Shown: positions 6,942-19,506 of the stretch, piece after piece
Layout: each line of letters opens with the position of its first letter
Position numbering within the stretch: the first letter of the stretch is position 1
Assembly: GCF_002224645.1 (NCBI RefSeq)
Contig: NZ_CP022121.1
Location: forward strand, 558,001 to 622,000
DNA from: Dehalobacterium formicoaceticum
GTDB lineage: Bacteria; Bacillota; Dehalobacteriia; Dehalobacteriales; Dehalobacteriaceae
Reading direction: 5' to 3'
Length of the DNA: 64,000 nucleotides
Notes under the pieces: generated by a model
Database searches by the model: none
Seen by the model: the letters and a program-made list of their open reading frames with translations, nothing else
Told to the model about the DNA's origin: nothing
Translations under genes and position numbers: made by a program

Positions 6942-7189
6942 AACGATCCCTTTCTATAATTCAATATTATTCGAGAAACTTTTTCCTAATCCGCATTTTG
7001 TCTCAACAACTCTTTTAAAGCTTTCCTGTTCGATATTAGCCATACAGATGAAAAAATCTCTGATTTAAAAGCATCCGAAAAGCTCTCGGACTTAATAAAG
7101 CAAAGGATCACCAGCTGCCAGGCGAGATTCAAATGTGCGAAAAATCCTTGACACTACCCGCACAAGTGGCTCTAAAAAAACGCGTTACG

Positions 7190-7467
7190 CACAATCCGGA
7201 TATTCAACAAAATTTTATGAGTCGAACACCGAAAACATACTGCTTCACCAATCAGCCAAGCAAGGTTTTGACTCGATTTCATCGAGCAAGATCCCTTCAA
7301 TGAGAGACCTCCAAGACGAATTCAACACATGCCTGGATTCTAAAAAAGTCATTTTAAAAGACTATGTAAAACAAAAGAATCTGATGAAAGAATCGCTGAC
7401 GATACAATCAAACGTTGATCATCTATTTTCTCAAAAAACAGAAGGACAAGCTCATAAACAAAGATGA
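7190..7467 (+). pseudogene. Second copy of the relaxase C-terminal tail
   Basis: The frame repeats the last ~92 residues of the fragment at 1917-2567 (SGYSTKFYESNTENILL to the end). Upstream the similarity stops abruptly after CGCGTTACG. There is no start of its own and no catalytic region, so this is a relic. An insertion near the end shifts the last few residues compared with copy 1. From 6942 to 7190 I see no gene and no recognisable feature. Confidence 0.8.
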
Positions 7468-7668
7468 GAATTGATAACATCAATAGGAACTAGCCGCCGG
7501 TTTCTATTAGACGTTTTTAAGATCCCCGTTTGCTCATATCAACATGCTTGGAGAGGTCAGAATACCTGTGAAAACTGCATTTTGAACCCCTTATGTTATT
7601 GGGAACATATCCACGCTCGTAAATCGAAACATATCCAATATTGGCTCTCGTTTGCAGGAAAATATCAA
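7192..7668 (+). repeat. Direct repeat, copy 2 (relaxase tail plus 3' flank)
   Basis: This matches 2286-2772 in the same orientation, including the three CTCGT-type units at 7592-7668. Its right edge coincides with the stop codon (7665-7667) of the gene at 7665-9161. The recombination that made the repeat may therefore have set the C-terminus of that protein. Confidence 0.85.
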
Positions 7669-9161
7669 CATAGAAAGAATTTATCAATTTCATCTTCATT
7701 TTTGAGAATGCTTTTTGCTGGAACTCCTACTGACTTCGCTAAACAAATAGAAGAAACAAATCTTAATTGAACATTGATATTGAAGTCAAACGCGTATTGC
7801 TGCAATTCTCCAAGTTTATGATATTTATTCAAAAGCTCATCTAGTTTAATTTGGTATTCTTTGTCCAATTCATCAACAAATGCGATAATTCTTTCTTGAT
7901 AAAGGTTTATAACTCCTATTTCGTGTTTGTTTAGAACGCCTTTTCCAAGACTGAGTGCTGTGGTTGCAACAATTGAGCCAATCAAAGCACCAACAACTGG
8001 AATTGGTATTACTGTTTGCCCTATTGCAGCGCCAATAGCGGCCCCTGTTGCATCTATAGCGTTTAAAGTGACTAAATCAATAAATCCATCTGTATCAACA
8101 TCGCCTTTTCTATATTTGACGATGGCATTGCTTAGCCCAAAAGTTCCTGAAGTAATTGCACCAGCACTTGGTGCAGCAAGGTGACAAACGTTGGTTAATC
8201 CATATATTGCATATCCTGAAATTCCACCTTTAATAGCGCCTTTAGCTGTATTTACTCCACATTCTTTCCAGTCTTCAATATCAAAATCCCATATTTCTTT
8301 TCCATTTTTATGTTTTTGATAGACAAAGATCCCAAGATTAAGCCCACCTTGAACGGCAGCACCAATTCCAGCAACTTTAGATGCTTCTCCAAAACTTGGT
8401 TGTGCTTCTTGTTGAGCTCTTAGTCTATCGCTATCTGCTTCATTTTTGATATTAGTTTTTTGTTGAGTAGTTTGTCTATTTACATCATTTACTTCTCCTG
8501 ATAACGTTTGGTCAATTGCTCCTTTTTGAACATCCTTATATTTAAGAACTGAAGATTCCAACCATTTATCATAAGAAACACCACGCAGAGCGCTCTCATC
8601 TTCAATAGCTTTTCTAATATTATTTATTTGGGAGCCTGATAAGACATTTCCATTGAATTCTACAGTTTTTGCTCCGCTCATAATTTTTTCTATAACTTCC
8701 ACATGATCTCTTGGGAAAAGCATACTCATTTTATCGTAATTGGATGCTTGCTTAATCTCTTCCAAGATATTGGCATAAAACTTCATTTGCACTTCTTTGC
8801 CTTGAAGCAGAATATCCGCAGGTCCATTATTATTTAATAGCACTACACTCTTTTGTAGCCCTTGATAAACAACTCTAGCATTTCTTATACCGGTTTCAGC
8901 AAATTCCGAAATAAAACCATGTACGCCAGTATCACCGCCACGATTACTGTCAATAAGATTATTGATTTCTATTTTAGCCCAATCTAGATTTGACAATGCA
9001 TTTGCTGACTTGATAGCTAAGTCTGATAATTTATCTGTTTCATTTGTAAGAATTGATTCTAATGTATTCATAAGATCCGTTAATCGGATATTGTTTAAAT
9101 AATCGACATATGAAGCAATCCCTTGTTCAACATTATTATCAATGGTCTGTTCACTAATCAT
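7665..9161 (-). CDS. Putative PD-(D/E)xK-like nuclease with hydrophobic glycine-rich C-terminal half
   Basis: A 498-residue protein that I do not recognise as a named family. About residues 70-140 carry a pattern like a divergent restriction-endonuclease fold: FISEFAETGIRN (Glu helix), then GPADILLQGKEVQMKF, which gives D...QxK. Residues ~190-260 are charged and helical. Residues ~260-430 alternate Gly/Ala-rich hydrophobic segments (VAGIGAAVQGGLNLGIF, AIGAAIGQTVIPIPVVGALI), which suggests membrane insertion. The start ATG at 9161 overlaps the stop of the upstream gene by 8 bases, so the two are surely co-translated. The stop falls at the edge of the duplicated repeat, so the C-terminus may be truncated. 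The nuclease call is inference from motif only; a defence role is suggested by the Thoeris genes just upstream. Confidence 0.5.
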   Translation of the reverse strand: MISEQTIDNNVEQGIASYVDYLNNIRLTDLMNTLESILTNETDKLSDLAIKSANALSNLDWAKIEINNLIDSNRGGDTGVHGFISEFAETGIRNARVVYQGLQKSVVLLNNNGPADILLQGKEVQMKFYANILEEIKQASNYDKMSMLFPRDHVEVIEKIMSGAKTVEFNGNVLSGSQINNIRKAIEDESALRGVSYDKWLESSVLKYKDVQKGAIDQTLSGEVNDVNRQTTQQKTNIKNEADSDRLRAQQEAQPSFGEASKVAGIGAAVQGGLNLGIFVYQKHKNGKEIWDFDIEDWKECGVNTAKGAIKGGISGYAIYGLTNVCHLAAPSAGAITSGTFGLSNAIVKYRKGDVDTDGFIDLVTLNAIDATGAAIGAAIGQTVIPIPVVGALIGSIVATTALSLGKGVLNKHEIGVINLYQERIIAFVDELDKEYQIKLDELLNKYHKLGELQQYAFDFNINVQLRFVSSICLAKSVGVPAKSILKNEDEIDKFFLC

Positions 9162-10014
9162 TTAATTTTAACTCCTTATTGATTAGTTGTGCCAAAGTTA
9201 AAGTTGAATTCACAAGCAGTCCAGCCTGTAGTTTTTCATCTTTGGAGAATTGACTATAATCACTTCCAATCAAAGCTTTCTCTGCCCTAGATATTCCAGA
9301 AATTTGAGTATTGGTAGTTTCAATCAATGCCTTGACTTCTGCGTTCATGTTGTTAAACTTTCTAATTATTTTCTCGAGATTTTCTCTCTCTCCAATTAGC
9401 TTGTTCGCAGTTTCTTTATTTTTATAACTGGCAAACAAGCCTGATCCAACTGAACCCGCTAACATAACACCAGCAATTGTCCAACCAACTGGTCCTGCTA
9501 ACGCGAGGAATGCACTGCCTGCAGTCATTCCGCCACCACCAGCTGCTAATGCACCACCACCAAGCCATGCCAATGCTGCATTAGTCGCAGCGGCACCTGA
9601 TAAGGTAGAGATAGCAGTACCTGTTGATGCAACACCAAAAGTAGTTGCAATACCCATTGCTGCTGTTGGACCCATCGTCGCTACAGCAACTCCAAGAGCA
9701 CTTAAAGTTGCACCCGCTCCAGAACCTCCAGCAGCTGCCTTTGCTTCAACTTCTGCTTTTTTAATTTCTTGTTGTTTAATCTTGAAATTTTCTACTTCAA
9801 TTTCAATTTTTTGAAGTGTTACTTTGAATTCCTTTGGAGTGTTTGCTAATTGATTAATTCGTTCTTCAATAAATTTAACAAGCTTTAAAGCTTTTTCACG
9901 TTCTTGATAAAGAAGATTCGTGTTTTCTCCTAAAATATTGGCGACTTTTTCATAGCGTTCAACCGCAGTATTATAATTGTCGATTGCATTTTTTCTTAAC
10001 TTTGCATTAAACAT
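9154..10014 (-). CDS. Coiled-coil protein with central Gly/Ala-rich hydrophobic hairpin
   Basis: A 286-residue protein of unknown family. Residues 1-95 are helical and charged (coiled-coil likely). Residues ~95-205 are strongly Gly/Ala-rich and hydrophobic, for example AALAWLGGGALAAGG and FLALAGPVGWTIAGVML. The last ~80 residues are charged helices again. Helix-hydrophobic hairpin-helix is the layout of some pore-forming or membrane-remodelling proteins, but that is only an analogy. It is the first gene of a two-gene unit; the next gene overlaps it by 8 bases. The 229-base gap to the TIR gene upstream suggests a separate promoter, though none is obvious. Confidence 0.55.
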   Translation of the reverse strand: MFNAKLRKNAIDNYNTAVERYEKVANILGENTNLLYQEREKALKLVKFIEERINQLANTPKEFKVTLQKIEIEVENFKIKQQEIKKAEVEAKAAAGGSGAGATLSALGVAVATMGPTAAMGIATTFGVASTGTAISTLSGAAATNAALAWLGGGALAAGGGGMTAGSAFLALAGPVGWTIAGVMLAGSVGSGLFASYKNKETANKLIGERENLEKIIRKFNNMNAEVKALIETTNTQISGISRAEKALIGSDYSQFSKDEKLQAGLLVNSTLTLAQLINKELKLND

Positions 10015-10243: not shown

Positions 10244-10747
10244 CTATTCTCTTGGTGGTTTGTTTGATATAGCATCTTCTATCAACTGCTCAATATTGTT
10301 CTTGATATCATCATATACATACTGACTAGAGGAATATGATGAATCAAAGCATGTAACGTATTTTGATAATCGTTCTTTATTTTTCCCGATTAGAAAATTA
10401 TAAAAAGGGTTGCTTCCTTTTGAAACCTGATCACCATTCTGATTCTTCAATTTATGAACATGAATACCGACGATCCCCTTATTTAGCTCATAGGCTTTTT
10501 CAATCTCATAGTTAACCCATTTACGACTTGATGTTGTTGATCCAACTAAAACTACAAGGCATGAACGTTTTGCCAATTGATCATTAATCCATTCCTTAAT
10601 TTTTGCATCGCTTTTTTCTTTTACTTCTTCCCAGTCGTTATCCGAAAAAGTTGAGTTGCTGTCTACCTTGCCCATATTTCTGACTTGCGACGCACGCCAC
10701 GAATCTTTATTATACTCAAAACTGAAAAACACTTGTCGTTTAGCCAT
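10244..10747 (-). CDS. thsB: ThsB-type TIR protein 2 (Thoeris)
   Basis: A 167-residue protein with a TIR-like fold (DUF1863/ThsB family). It opens with RQVFFSFEYNKDSWRA and has the core LVVLVGSTTSSRKWVNYEIEKAYE, in which the Glu of WVNYEIE is the expected catalytic position. In Thoeris, ThsB proteins sense phage and convert NAD+ to a cyclic ADP-ribose signal. The start ATG at 10747 follows AGGAGGCAAAG. It is the last gene of the block thsA-thsB1-thsB2. It is only distantly similar to the neighbouring TIR protein, so the two probably recognise different triggers. Confidence 0.88.
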   Translation of the reverse strand: MAKRQVFFSFEYNKDSWRASQVRNMGKVDSNSTFSDNDWEEVKEKSDAKIKEWINDQLAKRSCLVVLVGSTTSSRKWVNYEIEKAYELNKGIVGIHVHKLKNQNGDQVSKGSNPFYNFLIGKNKERLSKYVTCFDSSYSSSQYVYDDIKNNIEQLIEDAISNKPPRE

Positions 10748-10794: not shown

Positions 10795-11406
10795 TTATCT
10801 TGTTTTTGTTAGGTCATATCCCGCCGCATCATTTTCACTTTTGTCATATGCATTATCAATGTATTTCTGGGGATCTGATAAAAAAGTTTCTTCCTCAACA
10901 TAAGCGATGTAAGATCCCGTTAAAGCATTCACCGTTTTACAAGTATCACAGCTATATTTTTTAGGATTTTGATTAAATCTGTTATTATTTATTATAGAAT
11001 AGACCTTGGATTCATCATAGCTTGAGGAAGTACAACCATCACCATTTGTTGATGTCCTTTTCAGCCAACTATACCCCCCGTTAAATTTCATTATCACCCC
11101 GACCACTCCGTTTGTGTGAGATGTTCTACCTTTTCGTGTTATGTTTTTAAGGCTATATTCTATTTCCCAATCAATCCAATTACTGTTTTTCATATTAGGG
11201 GAGATAATAACTATAGTGACAGAGGTGTCGTACATCATATCAGTTAAATTCTTTTTAATATTTTCAGTTGAGGTATCTGACAGATCCGGAGATGAGCTTG
11301 TTTCCCCTTGATAATAAATTGCATCATCACCCAGAGCATCTATAATTGAATTCCTTAGATTTCTAGCCTCACTGTATTTATATGAAATGAATGTTTTATG
11401 TGACAT
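10795..11406 (-). CDS. thsB: ThsB-type TIR protein 1 (Thoeris)
   Basis: A 203-residue TIR-like protein (DUF1863/ThsB family). It opens with HKTFISYKYSEARNLRNSII and has the core VTIVIISPNMKNSNWIDWEIEYSL with the conserved Glu. The C-terminal third has two closely spaced cysteines (SCDTCKTVNA) not seen in the second TIR protein and could be a recognition region. The start ATG at 11406 follows GGGGGGATATT. It lies 11 bases after thsA and 47 bases before thsB2, so all three form one operon. It would produce the nucleotide signal that activates ThsA. Confidence 0.9.
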   Translation of the reverse strand: MSHKTFISYKYSEARNLRNSIIDALGDDAIYYQGETSSSPDLSDTSTENIKKNLTDMMYDTSVTIVIISPNMKNSNWIDWEIEYSLKNITRKGRTSHTNGVVGVIMKFNGGYSWLKRTSTNGDGCTSSSYDESKVYSIINNNRFNQNPKKYSCDTCKTVNALTGSYIAYVEEETFLSDPQKYIDNAYDKSENDAAGYDLTKTR

Positions 11407-11417
11407 AATATCCCCCC

Positions 11418-12836
11418 TTAAATAATCTGAAGTCTTTTTATAATCTCATTAATCAGTTTAACGAGCTTATCCTTATCAGTTACGGTGGCCAAATCATTGA
11501 GGTATCCCTCCAAATATGGATAATCAGAAGCACTTTCATTAACTTGGTCAAATATTTGAGAAGCAGCCCCCCCGGTACTTCCTACAGGTATAATAACTTT
11601 TCCTAACTGTTTTGCTATGTCAAACTCCTTAAGCATGCCGTCAGCAATCACTATTTTGTCAGCTACTTTCTTATTCCCAAAAATAAATACGGCGATTCCG
11701 GCCTGAGAAATCATATCTTCACGGTATTTCTTCCACAATTGGTCACGTGAAATAGTTCCAGAAAAAACTTGAGGGAAGGGGCGTAGGCACAGGTGTTCAT
11801 CAACATGTTTATACTTGCTTTGCATAATTTCTTCTAAAGCACCATTAATAATTGTTGATCCAATACCAAGTCCAAAGCCCGAAATTATTTGATAATTATT
11901 TTTAACTAATTCTTTGGCAAGATTATGTGTGAAGAGAACAACACTTTCCTCGTTCCATGGGGACTCATATTCGGCCAAACTTCCGGAAATAAATATATTT
12001 TTAAACAAGTAACCTTTTTCGACTGATTTTAAAATATTGGTTATTTCATCATAGCTATCCAACAGAATTGCCTGAATGCCATATCTTTTCAAATCTTTAA
12101 TGCGTAAATCTTGTTTAGCTACGTTATAAATAAAATCTTGCTCACTTTCTCCCTCTTTTTGTTTGATTTTCTCGAAGAAGCAATAGTGATCTCGTTCAGA
12201 TTCACCTAATAAAACTCGTATTTGGCTAAGAATATATTCCAAATTTGGATCTTCAAAACTGAAACCAATGAATAGAAATGTTTTTGATATTAAATCACCT
12301 TGAAGAGCTGTTCTAAACAATGGTCGTTCATTTCCATAGATCTCATAATCTTCTTTTGTAATGACCGCTTGAGCAGGATTTCTTACATCTCCGTGCATTT
12401 TATACACAACAGCATCTCTGTCGTATATATTACTCGCTAATGAATCTTGAGTTGTCTTAACATCCGTCTTTCTATTATTTTCCTTTAATGTTGTTTCTAA
12501 CAACTCATCATAGTTTGTCGTCCAATATGTTTGGATTGGCAGTCTTGTAAGTATTTCTATATTTTCATTTCGAGTAGTGTCTTTTGTAAATTCATTTAGT
12601 ATTTTTTGATTAATTGATGATCGTGTGCCACGTTCATTGCGATAATACTGTGTGATAGCTACCAAATCATTTTCTTTTTCAACATCTAAGCCAATATCAT
12701 TGGCCAAGGGTCTTACAAGTTCCTTCCAATTTGTATAACCAGAACCACGCGATAATCCAGCACCCGCAAAAACTGCAGCATATCCTTGGGATACAGCTCT
12801 TGCATATTCTCTAACAAATTCTTGAGCACTTGCCAT
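11418..12836 (-). CDS. thsA: Thoeris effector ThsA (SIR2-SLOG NADase)
   Basis: A 472-residue effector. The SIR2-like NADase domain (about 1-265) shows AAVFAGAGLSRGSGY, TYWTTNYDELLE (catalytic Asn) and VYKMHGDVRNP (catalytic His). The SLOG ligand sensor (about 270-472) shows ISGFGLGIGSTIINGALEEI and LRPFPQ, matching the ligand-binding Arg region of Bacillus cereus ThsA. When bound by the ThsB product, ThsA destroys NAD+ and halts infection; this is established for the family. The ATG at 12836 is chosen for its AAGGAGGATCAAT site; an ATG at 12878 has none. All key residues I can check are present, so the system looks intact. Confidence 0.95.
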   Translation of the reverse strand: MASAQEFVREYARAVSQGYAAVFAGAGLSRGSGYTNWKELVRPLANDIGLDVEKENDLVAITQYYRNERGTRSSINQKILNEFTKDTTRNENIEILTRLPIQTYWTTNYDELLETTLKENNRKTDVKTTQDSLASNIYDRDAVVYKMHGDVRNPAQAVITKEDYEIYGNERPLFRTALQGDLISKTFLFIGFSFEDPNLEYILSQIRVLLGESERDHYCFFEKIKQKEGESEQDFIYNVAKQDLRIKDLKRYGIQAILLDSYDEITNILKSVEKGYLFKNIFISGSLAEYESPWNEESVVLFTHNLAKELVKNNYQIISGFGLGIGSTIINGALEEIMQSKYKHVDEHLCLRPFPQVFSGTISRDQLWKKYREDMISQAGIAVFIFGNKKVADKIVIADGMLKEFDIAKQLGKVIIPVGSTGGAASQIFDQVNESASDYPYLEGYLNDLATVTDKDKLVKLINEIIKRLQII

Positions 12837-12920
12837 ATTGATCCTCCTTACTGTTTGGGTTGGGGATGGGGACCCCAAACATAATTCGCAAGTGTATAAA
12901 CACTTGCATTGCTTGCCAAT

Positions 12921-13769
12921 TTACTCTCCGCGTCTTAATTCCTGAATATCTTTGAAGAAAATCCACCCGTTTTGTGCTGCACCCGAAATAAAGGCAGCTG
13001 CTGACGAAATGCTTGAAAAAGGTAGTTTAACTAAAGTTCTACAAGTTTCACCCAGATCTTCGAGTTTCTTATCATCAATCAGAGAATTGATATCATTGGT
13101 CAACCGCTGATAGAGCCTTCCTTCATCGCTCCAATTTTTCAGTGCTTCTTTTGGCTTATGAACAACAGCTCCTGCCTCCACTACAAAACTTCCATCTTGG
13201 AAATAAACCTTTGCATTGTAATTCTTACTCTTTGGCAAGTAGTATTTGACGTCAGGTTTCTTTTCTCGCTCAATGAAATTGATACCTTCAGCCTTAAGAA
13301 GAAACTCAATCTGCTGAATGTATGTCTGATAAGTTGTCTTATCGAATGAACTTAAATTAGGCTCTTTATTCCGCGGTTCGGTGTTATCCAGAGTATATAC
13401 ACTAGATTTTTTTAATAGGTTGATAAAATGGAACTCCATGTAGTCAATGACATTAGCATCAAAAATATTATTGTCGCTCACGAACATGATGCAGTACGTC
13501 CAAAAATCCTTGTTTTTATCATGGTTTCCAATTCTACCTGCGCCAAGTTTTGATTGACCTATGTATATTGTCTTGAAGCCATTGGTATCCGCTTCATCAC
13601 TAAAAAGGAAATAGACAGCATAATTTGTAGCATAGTCTTCTTTTGCCACATCTTTTAGATAATCTCGCTTGAAATAGAATCCTCTGATCTGACTACTTCG
13701 ATCTTGAAAAACCTTTATGGCAGAAGGATTATTTTCATCAGGATAGTAATATGTTATTGTCCTCGGCAT
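12921..13769 (-). CDS. GIY-YIG nuclease-domain protein
   Basis: A 282-residue protein. The N-terminal GIY-YIG-like domain (about 45-130) shows NYAVYFLFSD and KTIYIGQSKLGAGRIGNH, followed by a Glu in DYMEFHFINL; these are the expected catalytic elements. The C-terminal region (about 195-275) has KVYFQDGSFVVEAGAVV, resembling DUF4357, a domain often appended to nucleases of restriction loci. The start ATG at 13769 follows GGAGATTTAATT. It lies 32 bases after res and 84 bases before thsA, in the same direction. It probably belongs to the restriction operon as an auxiliary nuclease, but could equally serve Thoeris. Confidence 0.8.
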   Translation of the reverse strand: MPRTITYYYPDENNPSAIKVFQDRSSQIRGFYFKRDYLKDVAKEDYATNYAVYFLFSDEADTNGFKTIYIGQSKLGAGRIGNHDKNKDFWTYCIMFVSDNNIFDANVIDYMEFHFINLLKKSSVYTLDNTEPRNKEPNLSSFDKTTYQTYIQQIEFLLKAEGINFIEREKKPDVKYYLPKSKNYNAKVYFQDGSFVVEAGAVVHKPKEALKNWSDEGRLYQRLTNDINSLIDDKKLEDLGETCRTLVKLPFSSISSAAAFISGAAQNGWIFFKDIQELRRGE

Positions 13770-13801: not shown

Positions 13802-15823
13802 TCATCCTTGAACAAGTTCCCATAGCTTGTCGTAACTACTCACCACATCATATTTTATATTTTCGCCACTGATGGCACGGAAATGCTCTCGGGCACAGTG
13901 AGCTTTCGCTTTTTCAATTTCTCTGAGTTCCATAGAGGACATGTCACCTTTGGTTTCAGCAACAAAATAAATATGTTTGACTTTACCCTCATAGAAAGCA
14001 ATTGCCCAGTCGGGATTGTATTTTCCAACAGGTGTGTTTATATAGAATCCTTTTGGCAGTTTGACATAGACTTCAACTTCTTGTGAATGCGTCTCTAGCT
14101 GATTAGCGAAGTCTCTCTCATTGGTCGAGTCGTAGATTACATAGTCATACAAATGCCGTTTTGCTTCTATAGCATTGACACCCAAAGCACCTTTCTTGAG
14201 ATCCGGCTCAGTAAATATATTCGTGCTAAATTTAGATGTCAGCTTATCGTAGGTAATATGCTCAATAATCGCTGTAGCTTTCTGCTCGTTGATAATATTT
14301 GCTGCTCGCAGGATAAACTCTTCAGGATTATTCCCAAACTGGTCAAATATCGATTTTTCAATACCAACTAAAATTGAAGCCACCGTTTTGCGTGTCATCC
14401 CAGTTTCGGAAACAATCTTTCCAACCAGATCATACCGTACCGAACTGCTGGCCTTCATCTCCAGGTAAGAGGAAGCCTCCTCTCGTACCATATCAGCTCG
14501 AACAAAAGCCTCTCCGGCTTGCAGCTGAGCTTTGGATTCGATCTTTTGGGTTTGTTCGCCTTTCTCCACCTTGAAATATATCTTCGATACACGCAATTTG
14601 GAATTCAGCTCAGTGATGGCTCTTTTTATCAGCTCATCCTCATCAAAGCTTACGGTATAGTAGCTTCGGCTGTTGATTCTTGACCAAAGTTCCTGGAATG
14701 CGCGGCTATTCAATTTATCTTTATCGAGCGTCAAATTGACTGTATTTTTACGAGCGTTCTCTGGTTTATTAATATTAGGATCGTAGACAGAATCAAGCAC
14801 AGAGATTACTTCCTGGATATGTCCAGATATTTCCTCAGGCACTTCAAGAGAACCATTTTGCTTTGCTTCATAATACTTTTCTGTCAGTTCACCGCGTTTA
14901 ATATAGCCGTTCTCTATCAGACTCTCATAAATAACCAGTGCGGTATCTTCGCCAAATTTCTCTTCAAACAGCTTGGCTTGAACCTTACGCGGACGATCGG
15001 CAACTGCTTCTGCAATTTCGCTTTGCAATCCTTTTGCAAAACTGTCGTAGCTTTCATTGGCAATAACAGTCAGAACGTTGACATTGTGAATCTCTTCGTA
15101 AGAAAGGACATTCTCATCCATTCGCTCACCAACTTGGTTTACAGAGAGACGCAAACCTCGTCCAACTTCCTGTCGCTTGCGAACATCGCTGCCACTTTGT
15201 TTCAATGTACATATCTGGAATACATTGGGGTTATCCCATCCTTCACGCAGCGCTGAGTGGCTGAAGATGAACCGGACTGGTTCGCGACGATCCAGAAGCC
15301 GTTCTTTGTCCTTCATGATCAAGTCGTAGGCATCAGCATCATCGGATGTACGTTCTTTCTTATCGCCAAGCTTACTGTCGATTATTCGACCGCTTTTCTT
15401 GTCTATTGAGAAATACCCAGCATGTGTCTGATCTTCAGATATACTTTCAAGGTACGTAAGGTATCCCTCTTCATCATCAAGAGAAAGCTGTATATTTCCA
15501 ACTATAGCCTTATACTCCTCTTCAAATATCTGAGCATAGGTGCCACCCGTGGCATTTCCCGGAGCATCGTATTGTCTATATTTTGCTACCTCGTCAATAA
15601 AGAACAAAGACAGTACCTTGATGCCCTTGGTAAACAATTGACGTTCTCTTTCAATATGGGAGAGTATAGTTTCTCTTATTTGAATTCGGCGCAACTGTTC
15701 CTCACTGACCGAACCAATCACATCACCTGCATACAATTTTTTACCATTCGTGAATTCCACAGATGAATCACGTCCATCAATACGTAAAATCGTATGCCCA
15801 TCTTTGTACTCAGCAAGTTCCCC
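13802..15823 (-). pseudogene. res: Type III restriction subunit Res, C-terminal part (split by IS21)
   Basis: About 671 residues continuing the frame of 18496-19506. Visible are the helicase motif region FSHSALREGWDNPNVFQIC and RQEVGRGLRLSVNQ (motifs V-VI). The C-terminal endonuclease domain shows YNPDWAIAFYE and FVAETKGDM, a PD...ExK site. Joining the two parts across one copy of the target duplication restores about 1,008 residues, a normal Res length, with no other damage. An ATG at 15857-15859 inside the IS end opens in frame, but there is no good ribosome site before it. Res needs the helicase front half, so restriction is predicted to be off. Confidence 0.93.
15818..15823 (+). repeat. 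6-bp target duplication of IS21 copy B, left
   Basis: TTCCCC directly before the IS end TGTATTTGTC. The same six bases follow the other end at 18496-18501. Removing the IS and one copy rejoins the res frame as ...NSGELAEYK.... Confidence 0.95.
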
Positions 15824-15964
15824 TGTATTTGTCAACTTAAAATTAGGCCATATAGTCATTTAATTTTCGGCCACTAAGAAAAAAAAATTTAGTCGTTTCA
15901 TAAGCATATTTAGTTTTCAAAGAGCATTGTTTCACGATGAATGCTAACGCGCTATCGCTTGTTA

Positions 15965-16027: not shown

Positions 16028-16807
16028 TCATGCCAGTTGCTGTTGTTGTAACCACTCCTTCGTTTCTTTCATGCGGTACGAGTTTCCATTCATGTTGACG
16101 ATGTATGACTGATGCGTCAACCGGTCAATCATGGCCGCCGTCATCACGGGATCCTGAAAAATTTCACCCCATCGTTCGAAGGATAAGTTGGTTGTGATGA
16201 TTGTCGATTTGCGACCAGCCCTCAGCGACAAATGGGTAAACAATAATTCAGATCCTTCCTTATCAAAAGATATATAACCCATTTCATCGGCAATAACCAA
16301 ATCATATTTTTCAAAGCGGTTCTGGAAGGCTCGAAGAGTTTGCTCTGCTCGGCATTCTTTAATCCGGTTAATGAGGAGGGGAACAGTTGTAAACCATACT
16401 TTATATCCCTCCAGGCAGGCCTTTAAGCCTAGCCCAATACTCACATGCGTCTTGCCTGTTCCCGGGTTCCCCGCCAGAATAATGTTGCGCCCCTCCTGAA
16501 TAAACTCTAATGTTTTCAGCTGCTTTAACTTCTTTTGGGCATCATCTGGCAAATCCGCGATGACCAAATCTTCAAGGTACTTTTTATGTGTAAATTCAGC
16601 CAGACGAATGCGATTATGCCGCGAGGCTTCCCGACGAGCATCACATTCCTTCTCCAGTAACTGCGCCAGAAATGCTTCATAACTGGCATCCTGCTGCGTT
16701 GACTCCCGAACTTGCTCATCCAAATGCTTACGAATCATAGGGAGTCTCAGTTCTTTGCTATATTCCAATATCGCTTCCTTAAACGCCTTGCGCGGCGCGT
16801 TACTCAT
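16028..16807 (-). CDS. istB: IS21 helper ATPase IstB (copy B)
   Basis: A complete 259-residue AAA+ helper. Walker A is ILAGNPGTGKTHVSI (about residue 110) and Walker B is YDLVIADEMGYISFD (about 173), followed by TNLSFERWGEIF. The ATG at 16807 overlaps the end of istA by 4 bases. IstB assembles on DNA and recruits IstA to the target. Confidence 0.95.
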   Translation of the reverse strand: MSNAPRKAFKEAILEYSKELRLPMIRKHLDEQVRESTQQDASYEAFLAQLLEKECDARREASRHNRIRLAEFTHKKYLEDLVIADLPDDAQKKLKQLKTLEFIQEGRNIILAGNPGTGKTHVSIGLGLKACLEGYKVWFTTVPLLINRIKECRAEQTLRAFQNRFEKYDLVIADEMGYISFDKEGSELLFTHLSLRAGRKSTIITTNLSFERWGEIFQDPVMTAAMIDRLTHQSYIVNMNGNSYRMKETKEWLQQQQLA

Positions 16808-18393
16808 GCAACGTCCTCCTTTGCTTTTGGTGTATGGGTATCAAACATGTCATCGTACATGCGAAGCTGCTGTGCTGACCGCTCTACAATCTCTTTTCCC
16901 GTTTTCGAGAGATTTGGTTGAACAACAGGCATCGCGTCACGATTCCTAGCACAAAGCACTTTAATTTTATCCGTAGTCACTTGAGCCGGATGAATTTTCT
17001 CCAGCTCCCGAATAGCTTGCTCGACTTCCGCAAATGGGACATCGTCTCGAATATATTGCAATAGCTGTATAAATTCCTTGTCTTGTTTGGTATAATATGT
17101 TTCGTATATTTCTTTTATCCTTTTAGGAGCCTGCTGCCATGCCGCACTACCGGCAAATGCACCAGGTTTTTTCCTTAGCGTATCCAAATAATGATTCAGA
17201 TCAAGCCGCCACTCGTGGTTGCCGGTTAATCGCACATGCTCCGCTACCAAGGATTCCTGATGGAAGCATCGCACCCGGGTCGCATATGCTTTAATCATGA
17301 TCGATTCACCTACCAAATGATCCGGTACTGAGTAACGATTCTGATCAACGATGATGGTGGAATATTTGTTCACCCGTCCATAAATCACGCGAGCTGCATC
17401 AAATGGTGGAAGGGTGGGCAGCAATGCGGGGCGCTCTTCTTCCAATCGTTCCTCCGCCGTCTGGCCGTTGTACTCATCATGGGACTTACGATTACGCTTA
17501 GTGCACACATCCTGCAAATATTGATTTGCCTCCTCCAGGGATTCAAATTCGTCCCGAAAAGCGAAGGCTTTTCGGCGAACGACCTCGACGCTTCGCTCCA
17601 CATGACCTTTTTCGTTGCCCTTGCGAATATTGCAAAACCGATACTGAAAACCATAGTAGAGCGACAATTGAAGCAATCCTTGCGTCGGCTCCTTCTCCGT
17701 TCCAATAAACCTTTTCACCGCGACTTTCATGTTATCGTACACCATGGTACGATACACTTGGCCGATATGCTGGAAAAACAGGGCGTGTGCTTCCTGAAAA
17801 CACTCTGTTGTTTGTTTGGTGAACAGATAAGCAAAGCGATAGTTCCCGTAAGCCGTTGTGAATACGGCCATCTGAAAAACTTGAAATTTTCCATTAATTT
17901 TTAGTTTAACCTCACCCCAATCAAATTCGCAAATGTCTCCAAGTTCATACAGAGCCTTAATAAACGCTTCCTTTGGTTTCCGTTCCAAGCTTCTAATGGT
18001 TCGAAGAACGGTACTGTAACTTAGTTGAGTACCCTCGGCTTCCAGTGCTTCAAAGATATCAATGGCTTTTTTTTGCTGCTTGTGCCGCCCCTGATTTCGC
18101 TTAGTTTCATTCTCGTCAAGATAGAACTGGATCCTGTTCACAACCTCGTCAGTCATTTTTCTTTTGGGTCGAATGCCCACAGTATACTTGGGGGCAGAAG
18201 TGAGGGTGTCGACTAGTGCCTGGATATCTGCCGACCCGCTCGACAATAATTGCTGTCTCCCTTCCTCATATTGTCCAATGTACTTTCCTACGGTGTCCCG
18301 ATTGATCCCTGTTATTTTCGCAATTTCCCGGCGCGATTTCCCTTCATGAATATGCATCATTAAAATTTGTTGCTTGATGTTCATTGTGATCAT
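16804..18393 (-). CDS. istA: IS21-family transposase IstA (copy B)
   Basis: 529 residues, identical in protein sequence to copy A at 225-1814. It has an N-terminal helix-turn-helix and a DDE integrase core (CEFDWGEV, MVYDNMKVA, KGHVERSVEV). About 100 bases lie between its start and the right IS end. Confidence 0.95.
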   Translation of the reverse strand: MITMNIKQQILMMHIHEGKSRREIAKITGINRDTVGKYIGQYEEGRQQLLSSGSADIQALVDTLTSAPKYTVGIRPKRKMTDEVVNRIQFYLDENETKRNQGRHKQQKKAIDIFEALEAEGTQLSYSTVLRTIRSLERKPKEAFIKALYELGDICEFDWGEVKLKINGKFQVFQMAVFTTAYGNYRFAYLFTKQTTECFQEAHALFFQHIGQVYRTMVYDNMKVAVKRFIGTEKEPTQGLLQLSLYYGFQYRFCNIRKGNEKGHVERSVEVVRRKAFAFRDEFESLEEANQYLQDVCTKRNRKSHDEYNGQTAEERLEEERPALLPTLPPFDAARVIYGRVNKYSTIIVDQNRYSVPDHLVGESIMIKAYATRVRCFHQESLVAEHVRLTGNHEWRLDLNHYLDTLRKKPGAFAGSAAWQQAPKRIKEIYETYYTKQDKEFIQLLQYIRDDVPFAEVEQAIRELEKIHPAQVTTDKIKVLCARNRDAMPVVQPNLSKTGKEIVERSAQQLRMYDDMFDTHTPKAKEDVA

Positions 18394-18495
18394 CTCTCCC
18401 AGCCCCTACCTGTTGAATTTCCTCTCAAGTAGGTTAATCTATTGTGGCCGGTTTTTCAATGACTACGGTGGCCTACTATTAGATTACCATAGACA

Positions 18496-18501
18496 TTCCC
18501 C
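18496..18501 (+). repeat. 6-bp target duplication of IS21 copy B, right
   Basis: TTCCCC directly after the IS terminus ATAGACA at 18495, matching 15818-15823. Confidence 0.95.
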
Positions 18502-19506
18502 AGAGTTATCAAAAAGGTTGTATCCTTCAGTGACGATCCTGGAAACCTTCCGAATACCTGTTTTCCCTTTGATGTCAAATTCTATTGTTGCAGTCGGATT
18601 GCCCTTAGAGAGGTTGATGCTCTGAATATAGATATAGCCCTCAGTTGCAGTGCTCCCTGAAACAGAGATCCCCTTTACGGCGATTTTTTTAACGAGCTTT
18701 TTGTTGTAAGCTTCAAGGGCATCGAGGCGATAAATCATATTGTAGACACTGTCCGCCCGATGCGTTGCTGAATACCGCAGTGTTGCCAAAGGAGTGAACT
18801 CTTTCAGTCTTTCTTTGGTTGCTGCACCTTCTACTGACTGTGGCTCATCGATTATCAGAATCGGATTCGTTTTAGCTAAAATATCAATTGGACGGCGGGA
18901 ACGAAAATCATCGAGTTTCATATAAATACGCCTTGCGTCTTTTCCTCTGGCATTGAACGCTTGGCTGTTGATAATCATGGCGTTAATTGAACTATCAGAT
19001 GCAAACCGATCGAGTTCAGTTAGCTGGGCAGAGTTATAAATAAAGTAGCGGATCTTTTTACCGTAATCTTCAGCAAAATGATCCTCTGTCATTTGAAATG
19101 ACTTGTAAACACCTTCACGTATGGCAACACTAGGGACGACAATGATAAATTTACTCCATCCATAACGCTTATTCAGTTCGTACATTGTCTTGATATAGGT
19201 ATAAGTTTTACCTACACCGGTTTCCATTTCAACGGTCAAGTTATAACGCCCATCAAGTGATTCTGATGGCTTGATTTGCCCCGATCTCTGTATATTACGG
19301 ATATTCTCAAGAATTTTATCGTCGCCAATAACCACTGGTGCATTATTGAAACCAGTAAAGCTACGAGCATCTTCCAGGCCGATTTGTCCTAATCCTGGAT
19401 CTATCATATAGGTCGGTGAGTGAAATGGCTGACCATTAAACACTTCACAAATCGCATTTGCAGCATCAGACTGAAATTTTTGATGCCTGAATTGTAATCT
19501 CATCAT
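18496..19506 (-). pseudogene. res: Type III restriction subunit Res, N-terminal part (split by IS21)
   Basis: The first 337 codons of Res. They contain the translocase motifs MQTGVGKT-like ETGVGKTYTYIKT (Walker A, about residue 93), IDEPQSVEG (DEAD-like box II, about 218) and RYSATHRADSVYN (motif III). Reading into the IS adds only three residues before a stop. The start lies 8 bases after the mod stop; the two are one transcription unit. The type III Res-Mod complex uses ATP to cut unmodified DNA; the cutting domain is in the separated C-terminal part. Confidence 0.93.

Follow-up and report, generated by a model that had tools for sequence, protein, structure and literature searches.

Two overlapping genes are found on the reverse strand of the window, i.e. 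the whole stretch of 64,000 nucleotides that was analysed. Gene A (9154..10014) encodes a protein of 286 aa and gene B (7665..9161), immediately downstream, a protein of 498 aa; both were delineated from their ORFs, PADLOC matches and structural models, together with hydropathy in the case of A. As had been proposed by an earlier, sequence-only reading of this DNA, both ORFs are intact and overlap by 8 bases (9154..9161, same strand), which points to co-translation, and each is preceded by a Shine-Dalgarno-like motif legible in the DNA (GGGAAGG for A and AAGGAG for B). That reading also placed the pair directly downstream of Thoeris, and indeed a ThsA gene with a STALD domain (11418-12878) and two TIR-containing ThsB genes (10795-11406 and 10244-10747) precede it on the same (-) strand, the last of them being separated from A by 229 bp. 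Upstream of Thoeris lie PDC-S14 (12921-13769), a candidate defence gene of the GIY-YIG/DUF4357 type, and the two parts (13802-15859 and 18484-19506) of a type III restriction enzyme gene, which is split by an IS21-like element that consists of a transposase gene (16804-18393) and a helper ATPase gene (16028-16807). An identical 529-aa transposase is encoded at 225-1814. A near-identical protein segment (YSTK-YESNTENILLHQSAKQGFDSISSSKIPSMRDLQDEF...) is present in two copies, at 2004-2567 and, truncated and just downstream of gene B, at 7135-7467, a duplication that points to recombination at the island's border.

The sequence-only reading assigned the pair to an unknown family, which has to be revised since both genes belong to a candidate already listed, albeit unnamed, by PADLOC. 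Protein A matches the PDC-M09A HMM with an E of 4e-108 (positions 1-280 of 282) and the adjoining protein B matches PDC-M09B with an E of 1.7e-173 (positions 3-479 of 480). With the same two genes in the same order, the same lengths and whole-length matches, the pair does not differ from PDC-M09 and is a member of it. These whole-protein matches and the conservation across phyla described below show that the pair is real, far beyond chance. The PDC series corresponds to unpublished candidates (PMC11811056), and no name, mechanism or test of PDC-M09 was found in the open-access literature or in PADLOC, nor was a family for A or B found in Pfam and NCBIfam.

Protein A is best described as a membrane-type partner, as the sequence-only reading had anticipated when it recognized a helix-hydrophobic-helix protein. 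Its predicted model consists of two long helices (residues 4-54 and 61-96), an uncharged stretch (93-197) and two further helices (192-247 and 258-278). The 105 residues of the uncharged stretch include no D, E, K or R, and 59% of them are G, A or S. No other part of A is as well conserved; in A homologues the longest uncharged stretch has a median of 98 residues. In Streptococcus and Lachnospiraceae, A is extended at its N-terminus by amphipathic repeats or by a further domain that has no Pfam match. Long helices with a Gly-rich hydrophobic tip are also a feature of the Leo/BDLP bacterial dynamins, which differ in being GTPases, whereas no Dynamin_N domain is present in A or B, and a profile comparison with a neighbouring dynamin of Lactococcus lactis was negative. 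A Leo-type (LeoBC) dynamin pair is encoded elsewhere in the same genome, outside the window (G000:C1:3472682-3476286, L158), with one of its genes matched through two in-frame TAG codons.

From N- to C-terminus, protein B displays a coiled region, a nuclease-like domain, a Gly-rich domain predicted to reside in the membrane and a C-terminal tail. The GPAD...QMK pattern picked out by the sequence-only reading is readily located (GPAD at 113-116 and QMK at 125-127), and the residues E86, N94, D116, Q125 and K127 are identical in all 76 B homologues, while H81 is identical in 75 of them. Plasmid-borne copies identified by tblastn keep the residues of the H81-E86 region as well. Since the loci were found partly with a pattern covering H81-E86, conservation there is somewhat favoured by the search, unlike that of D116, Q125 and K127, which were part of no pattern. 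In the helix-dominated AlphaFold model of B (mean pLDDT 81, pTM 0.59), these residues fall within a block at 76-158 (8688..8936, reverse strand) whose pLDDT is mostly 88-96 and in which DSSP delineates a helix (76-99), three strands (106-108, 117-119 and 122-126), a helix (132-142) and a last strand (146-149). This is the alpha-beta-beta-beta-alpha-beta order of PD-(D/E)xK nucleases, with the D before the second strand and the QxK ending the third, and the acidic residue, D and (D/E/Q)xK that define such enzymes follow one another in the right order in the 76 proteins (E86, D116, Q125 and K127). These invariant residues and the predicted core around them make it likely that the domain is a divergent PD-(D/E)xK nuclease of the E..D..QxK type. 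Its resemblance to nucleases with a QxK site such as Mrr extends to the order of E, D and QxK and to the predicted topology; it differs from Mrr-type enzymes, however, in the additional N94 and H81 and in having no detectable similarity to the Mrr_cat profile (hhalign) or fold match. A Pfam scan of the 76 proteins identified no significant nuclease family, PDB sequence searches with B returned no known nuclease, and Foldseek with the full-length model against PDB and BFVD gave nothing under E 0.001. The divergent nuclease proposed by the sequence-only reading is hence backed by motif and predicted core but not by a fold or profile match to a known nuclease. The Gly/Ala-rich segments ascribed by the same reading to the second gene are present in B as three hydrophobic, charge-free stretches at 263-282, 312-348 and 371-406 (residues ~263-406, 7944..8375, reverse strand), but the longest one is in A. 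Tim17/23-like rows for B 255-386 (Z about 6) were within the stated noise for helical models and were rejected.

A scan of one genome per species yielded 251 relatives, of which 79 loci, distributed over Bacillota, Actinomycetota, Cyanobacteriota, Bacteroidota, Pseudomonadota and others, were retained. All 11 A1/A2 members have gene A immediately upstream of B, as do the 79 genome loci with the exception of L038, a contig-edge fragment, and L065, a cyanobacterial locus. The 90 relatives, which span many phyla, thus share this order almost without exception; in L047 the matched A reading frame is short. Pairwise identities of A and B are correlated (r 0.87 over 72 loci), to which shared ancestry of the hosts contributes. 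For the sequence-only reading, homologues occurring mostly alone and outside mobile or defence regions would have refuted its proposal; what emerged instead is near-obligate pairing in a mobile and defence-rich setting. The pair is infrequent in the phylum of the present genome: among 398 genomes sampled there, three contain a strong match to the nuclease-like domain. B of the present genome is 89-92% identical to that of Neobacillus, Mesobacillus, Bacillus and a Eubacteriales MAG, whereas the RpoB segment compared for the same hosts is only about 70-72% identical, which indicates recent horizontal transfer. In addition, B was detected by tblastn in 60 plasmid records from Lactococcus, Klebsiella, Rhodococcus, Curtobacterium, Leptolyngbya, Niallia and Raoultella.

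A search for co-occurrence in defence islands had been recommended by the sequence-only reading. At E up to 1e-10, the 142 dereplicated neighbours of A/B match 303 PADLOC families, whereas 124 genes taken from random regions in other genomes of the phylum match 20; these counts are of families rather than proteins, one restriction protein can match many models, and the host mix differs between the two sets. WYL, type I methyltransferase, Hachiman HamB, Dpd, Gabija GajB and defence reverse transcriptases are among the top families. In E. coli, the copies sit in CP4-like islands (AlpA, CbtA/YeeU, RadC, integrases). Of the three that were inspected, two have a WYL/WCX-type regulator directly upstream of the pair, and BREX and TrlF or a SIR2 gene nearby.

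An anti-phage system to which the pair can be related is Bunzi (BnzA/BnzB), which likewise combines a Gly-rich membrane partner with a larger second protein. When the Gly-rich segment of A was used as a query, ten lactobacillus plasmids without B were retrieved, and in the three that were inspected the A-type gene follows another gene, which in one of them (L170) matches BnzB with an E of 3.2e-100. The A-type protein of this plasmid (369 aa) is 43% identical to A of the window and matches PDC-M09A with an E of 2.1e-70. The BnzB of L170 and B share one C-terminal tail (SVTLAEVRNVPVNRILKSKPDIDKYF against SSICLAKSVGVPAKSILKNEDEIDKFF), for which the score is 24.2 bits, while 1000 local shuffles reached 8.1 at most; this evidence, for both pairing and tail, comes from one plasmid lineage only. 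On plasmids, A-type genes thus occur with B or with BnzB, and their pairing with the BnzB of Bunzi on lactobacillus plasmids is new in this analysis. Among all fetched ORFs, the best matches to the A profile after the A-type proteins themselves are two genes directly upstream of BnzB, in L174 (38.2 bits, shuffle maximum 25.4) and L175 (33.8 bits, shuffle maximum 22.5). The L175 BnzA-like gene encodes an A-type stretch and a TerB domain above the Pfam cut-off, TerB being listed for Bunzi (PMC10952713). Beside the BnzB of a Lactococcus locus (L180), a BnzA-like protein contains a Gly-rich stretch and a segment that looks TerB-like on visual inspection; this canonical BnzA gave no A-profile score above shuffles, and the BnzB has no B-type tail. 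The BnzA-like gene of L173 was rejected as a relative of A, its match being no better than shuffles.

A and B are nevertheless not Bunzi, for they are without TerB and without BnzB. TerB is absent from A and 72 homologues at E up to 0.01, and A compared with BnzA gives an E of 0.017 only. The BnzB models do not match B at E up to 1, B having the E..D..QxK nuclease-like domain instead, and the C-terminal tail is the only part in common. The shared partner and the distribution of the tail indicate that A and BnzA have corresponding roles, that some A-type proteins serve BnzB directly and that the tail goes with an A-type partner; the tail of B (residues ~463-498, 7668..7775, reverse strand) might thus be a docking tail for A, and the pair probably works like Bunzi. 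A wider proposal, which we put forward tentatively and hold to be somewhat less than evenly probable, is that PDC-M09 and Bunzi belong to a single modular class of anti-phage systems anchored in the membrane, where the Gly-rich membrane partner is interchangeable and recruits either the nuclease-like B or BnzB via a short transferable C-terminal docking tail. In a divergent locus (L005:335-3376, reverse strand), a B-A pair in reversed order comes after a TerB gene, an arrangement that is intermediate between PDC-M09 and Bunzi. On an IncHI2-type plasmid (L181:3127-5017), a BnzB-like gene is preceded by a gene for a 165-aa Gly-rich membrane protein, and similar BnzB-like matches are found in hundreds of enterobacterial plasmid records, where they are annotated as hypothetical.

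The pair probably protects bacteria from phages. In the scenario that we favour, with roughly even chances of being correct, A and B would constitute a mobile, Bunzi-like two-component system directed against phages (or mobile elements), with a membrane partner and a docked PD-(D/E)xK effector that cuts nucleic acid on infection. The Gly/Ala-rich stretch of the helical protein A would insert into the inner membrane, where A may hold or gate the effector, and B would dock to A, the contact probably being made by the C-terminal tail of B together with its Gly-rich membrane domain. Once infection is sensed, the putative nuclease (E86, D116, Q125 and K127) would cut nucleic acid, DNA close to the membrane being the likeliest target. 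An unnamed but widespread candidate defence system thereby gains a concrete, testable mechanism and is tied to Bunzi by a shared membrane partner. Should the predictions on nuclease and docking tail be true, the system would illustrate how bacteria exchange effectors while keeping a common membrane platform, and a defence that cuts DNA would be located at the membrane, the site of entry of phage DNA.

The main competing explanation, unlikely in our view, is a pore-forming suicide pair in which A would kill by inserting its Gly/Ala stretch into the inner membrane, in the manner of an alpha-pore-forming toxin or a dynamin paddle, and B would be a sensor or lock whose nuclease-like fold binds nucleic acid rather than cutting it. 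A charge-free stretch of ~100 residues between long helices would suit such a role, as would the weak Foldseek rows of A to ClyA and AhlC, a weak PADLOC match to LeoBC (E 1.3e-8), a sub-threshold ApoL match in a divergent A relative and the Gly-rich paddle of LeoA (PMC4159319). The fold matches to PDB are, however, at noise level (best Foldseek E 0.12), and the ClyA/BAR-like rows (ClyA Z about 6) had to be discarded as being within the stated noise for long-helix models, while the invariance of E, D, Q and K in B argues for catalysis. It is more doubtful still that the pair is a module for plasmid or island maintenance, competition or stress (toxin-antitoxin or tellurite-type stress) rather than phage defence: Klebsiella accounts for 46 of the 60 plasmid records and both of those inspected are near ter genes, but chromosomal copies sit in defence islands and the partner is in common with BnzB of an anti-phage system.

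Least plausible by far is that A/B is an accessory of the adjoining Thoeris, with a membrane nuclease working alongside NAD depletion, the functional combination that the sequence-only reading entertained. Position and strand in the window would fit such a partnership, but no relative of ThsA or ThsB was found in the flanks of any other A/B locus, including hosts in which B is 89-92% identical; the partnership was therefore rejected, and the proximity to Thoeris is ascribed to chance within a defence island.

As to further components, no universal third gene emerged among the loci: WYL regulators recur, and in several clostridial loci a DUF697 gene is found a short way downstream. A dynamin was rejected as a third component, since two dynamin genes flank the pair on one L. 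lactis plasmid and the other loci have no relative of them. A related gene recurs in six clostridial loci (L036, L037, L058, L077, L084 and L091), with DUF697 in the two that were scanned (L036 and L058) and a distance to the upstream B within 30 bp in the three that were measured (L058, L084 and L091), and a three-gene variant is possible there. Finally, in an E. coli island (L157:16328-18850), the pair is followed by a third gene encoding a protein of 840 aa, possibly a second effector; the C-terminal half of this protein has a weak match to B that takes in EIQTK, a stretch resembling D..QxK.
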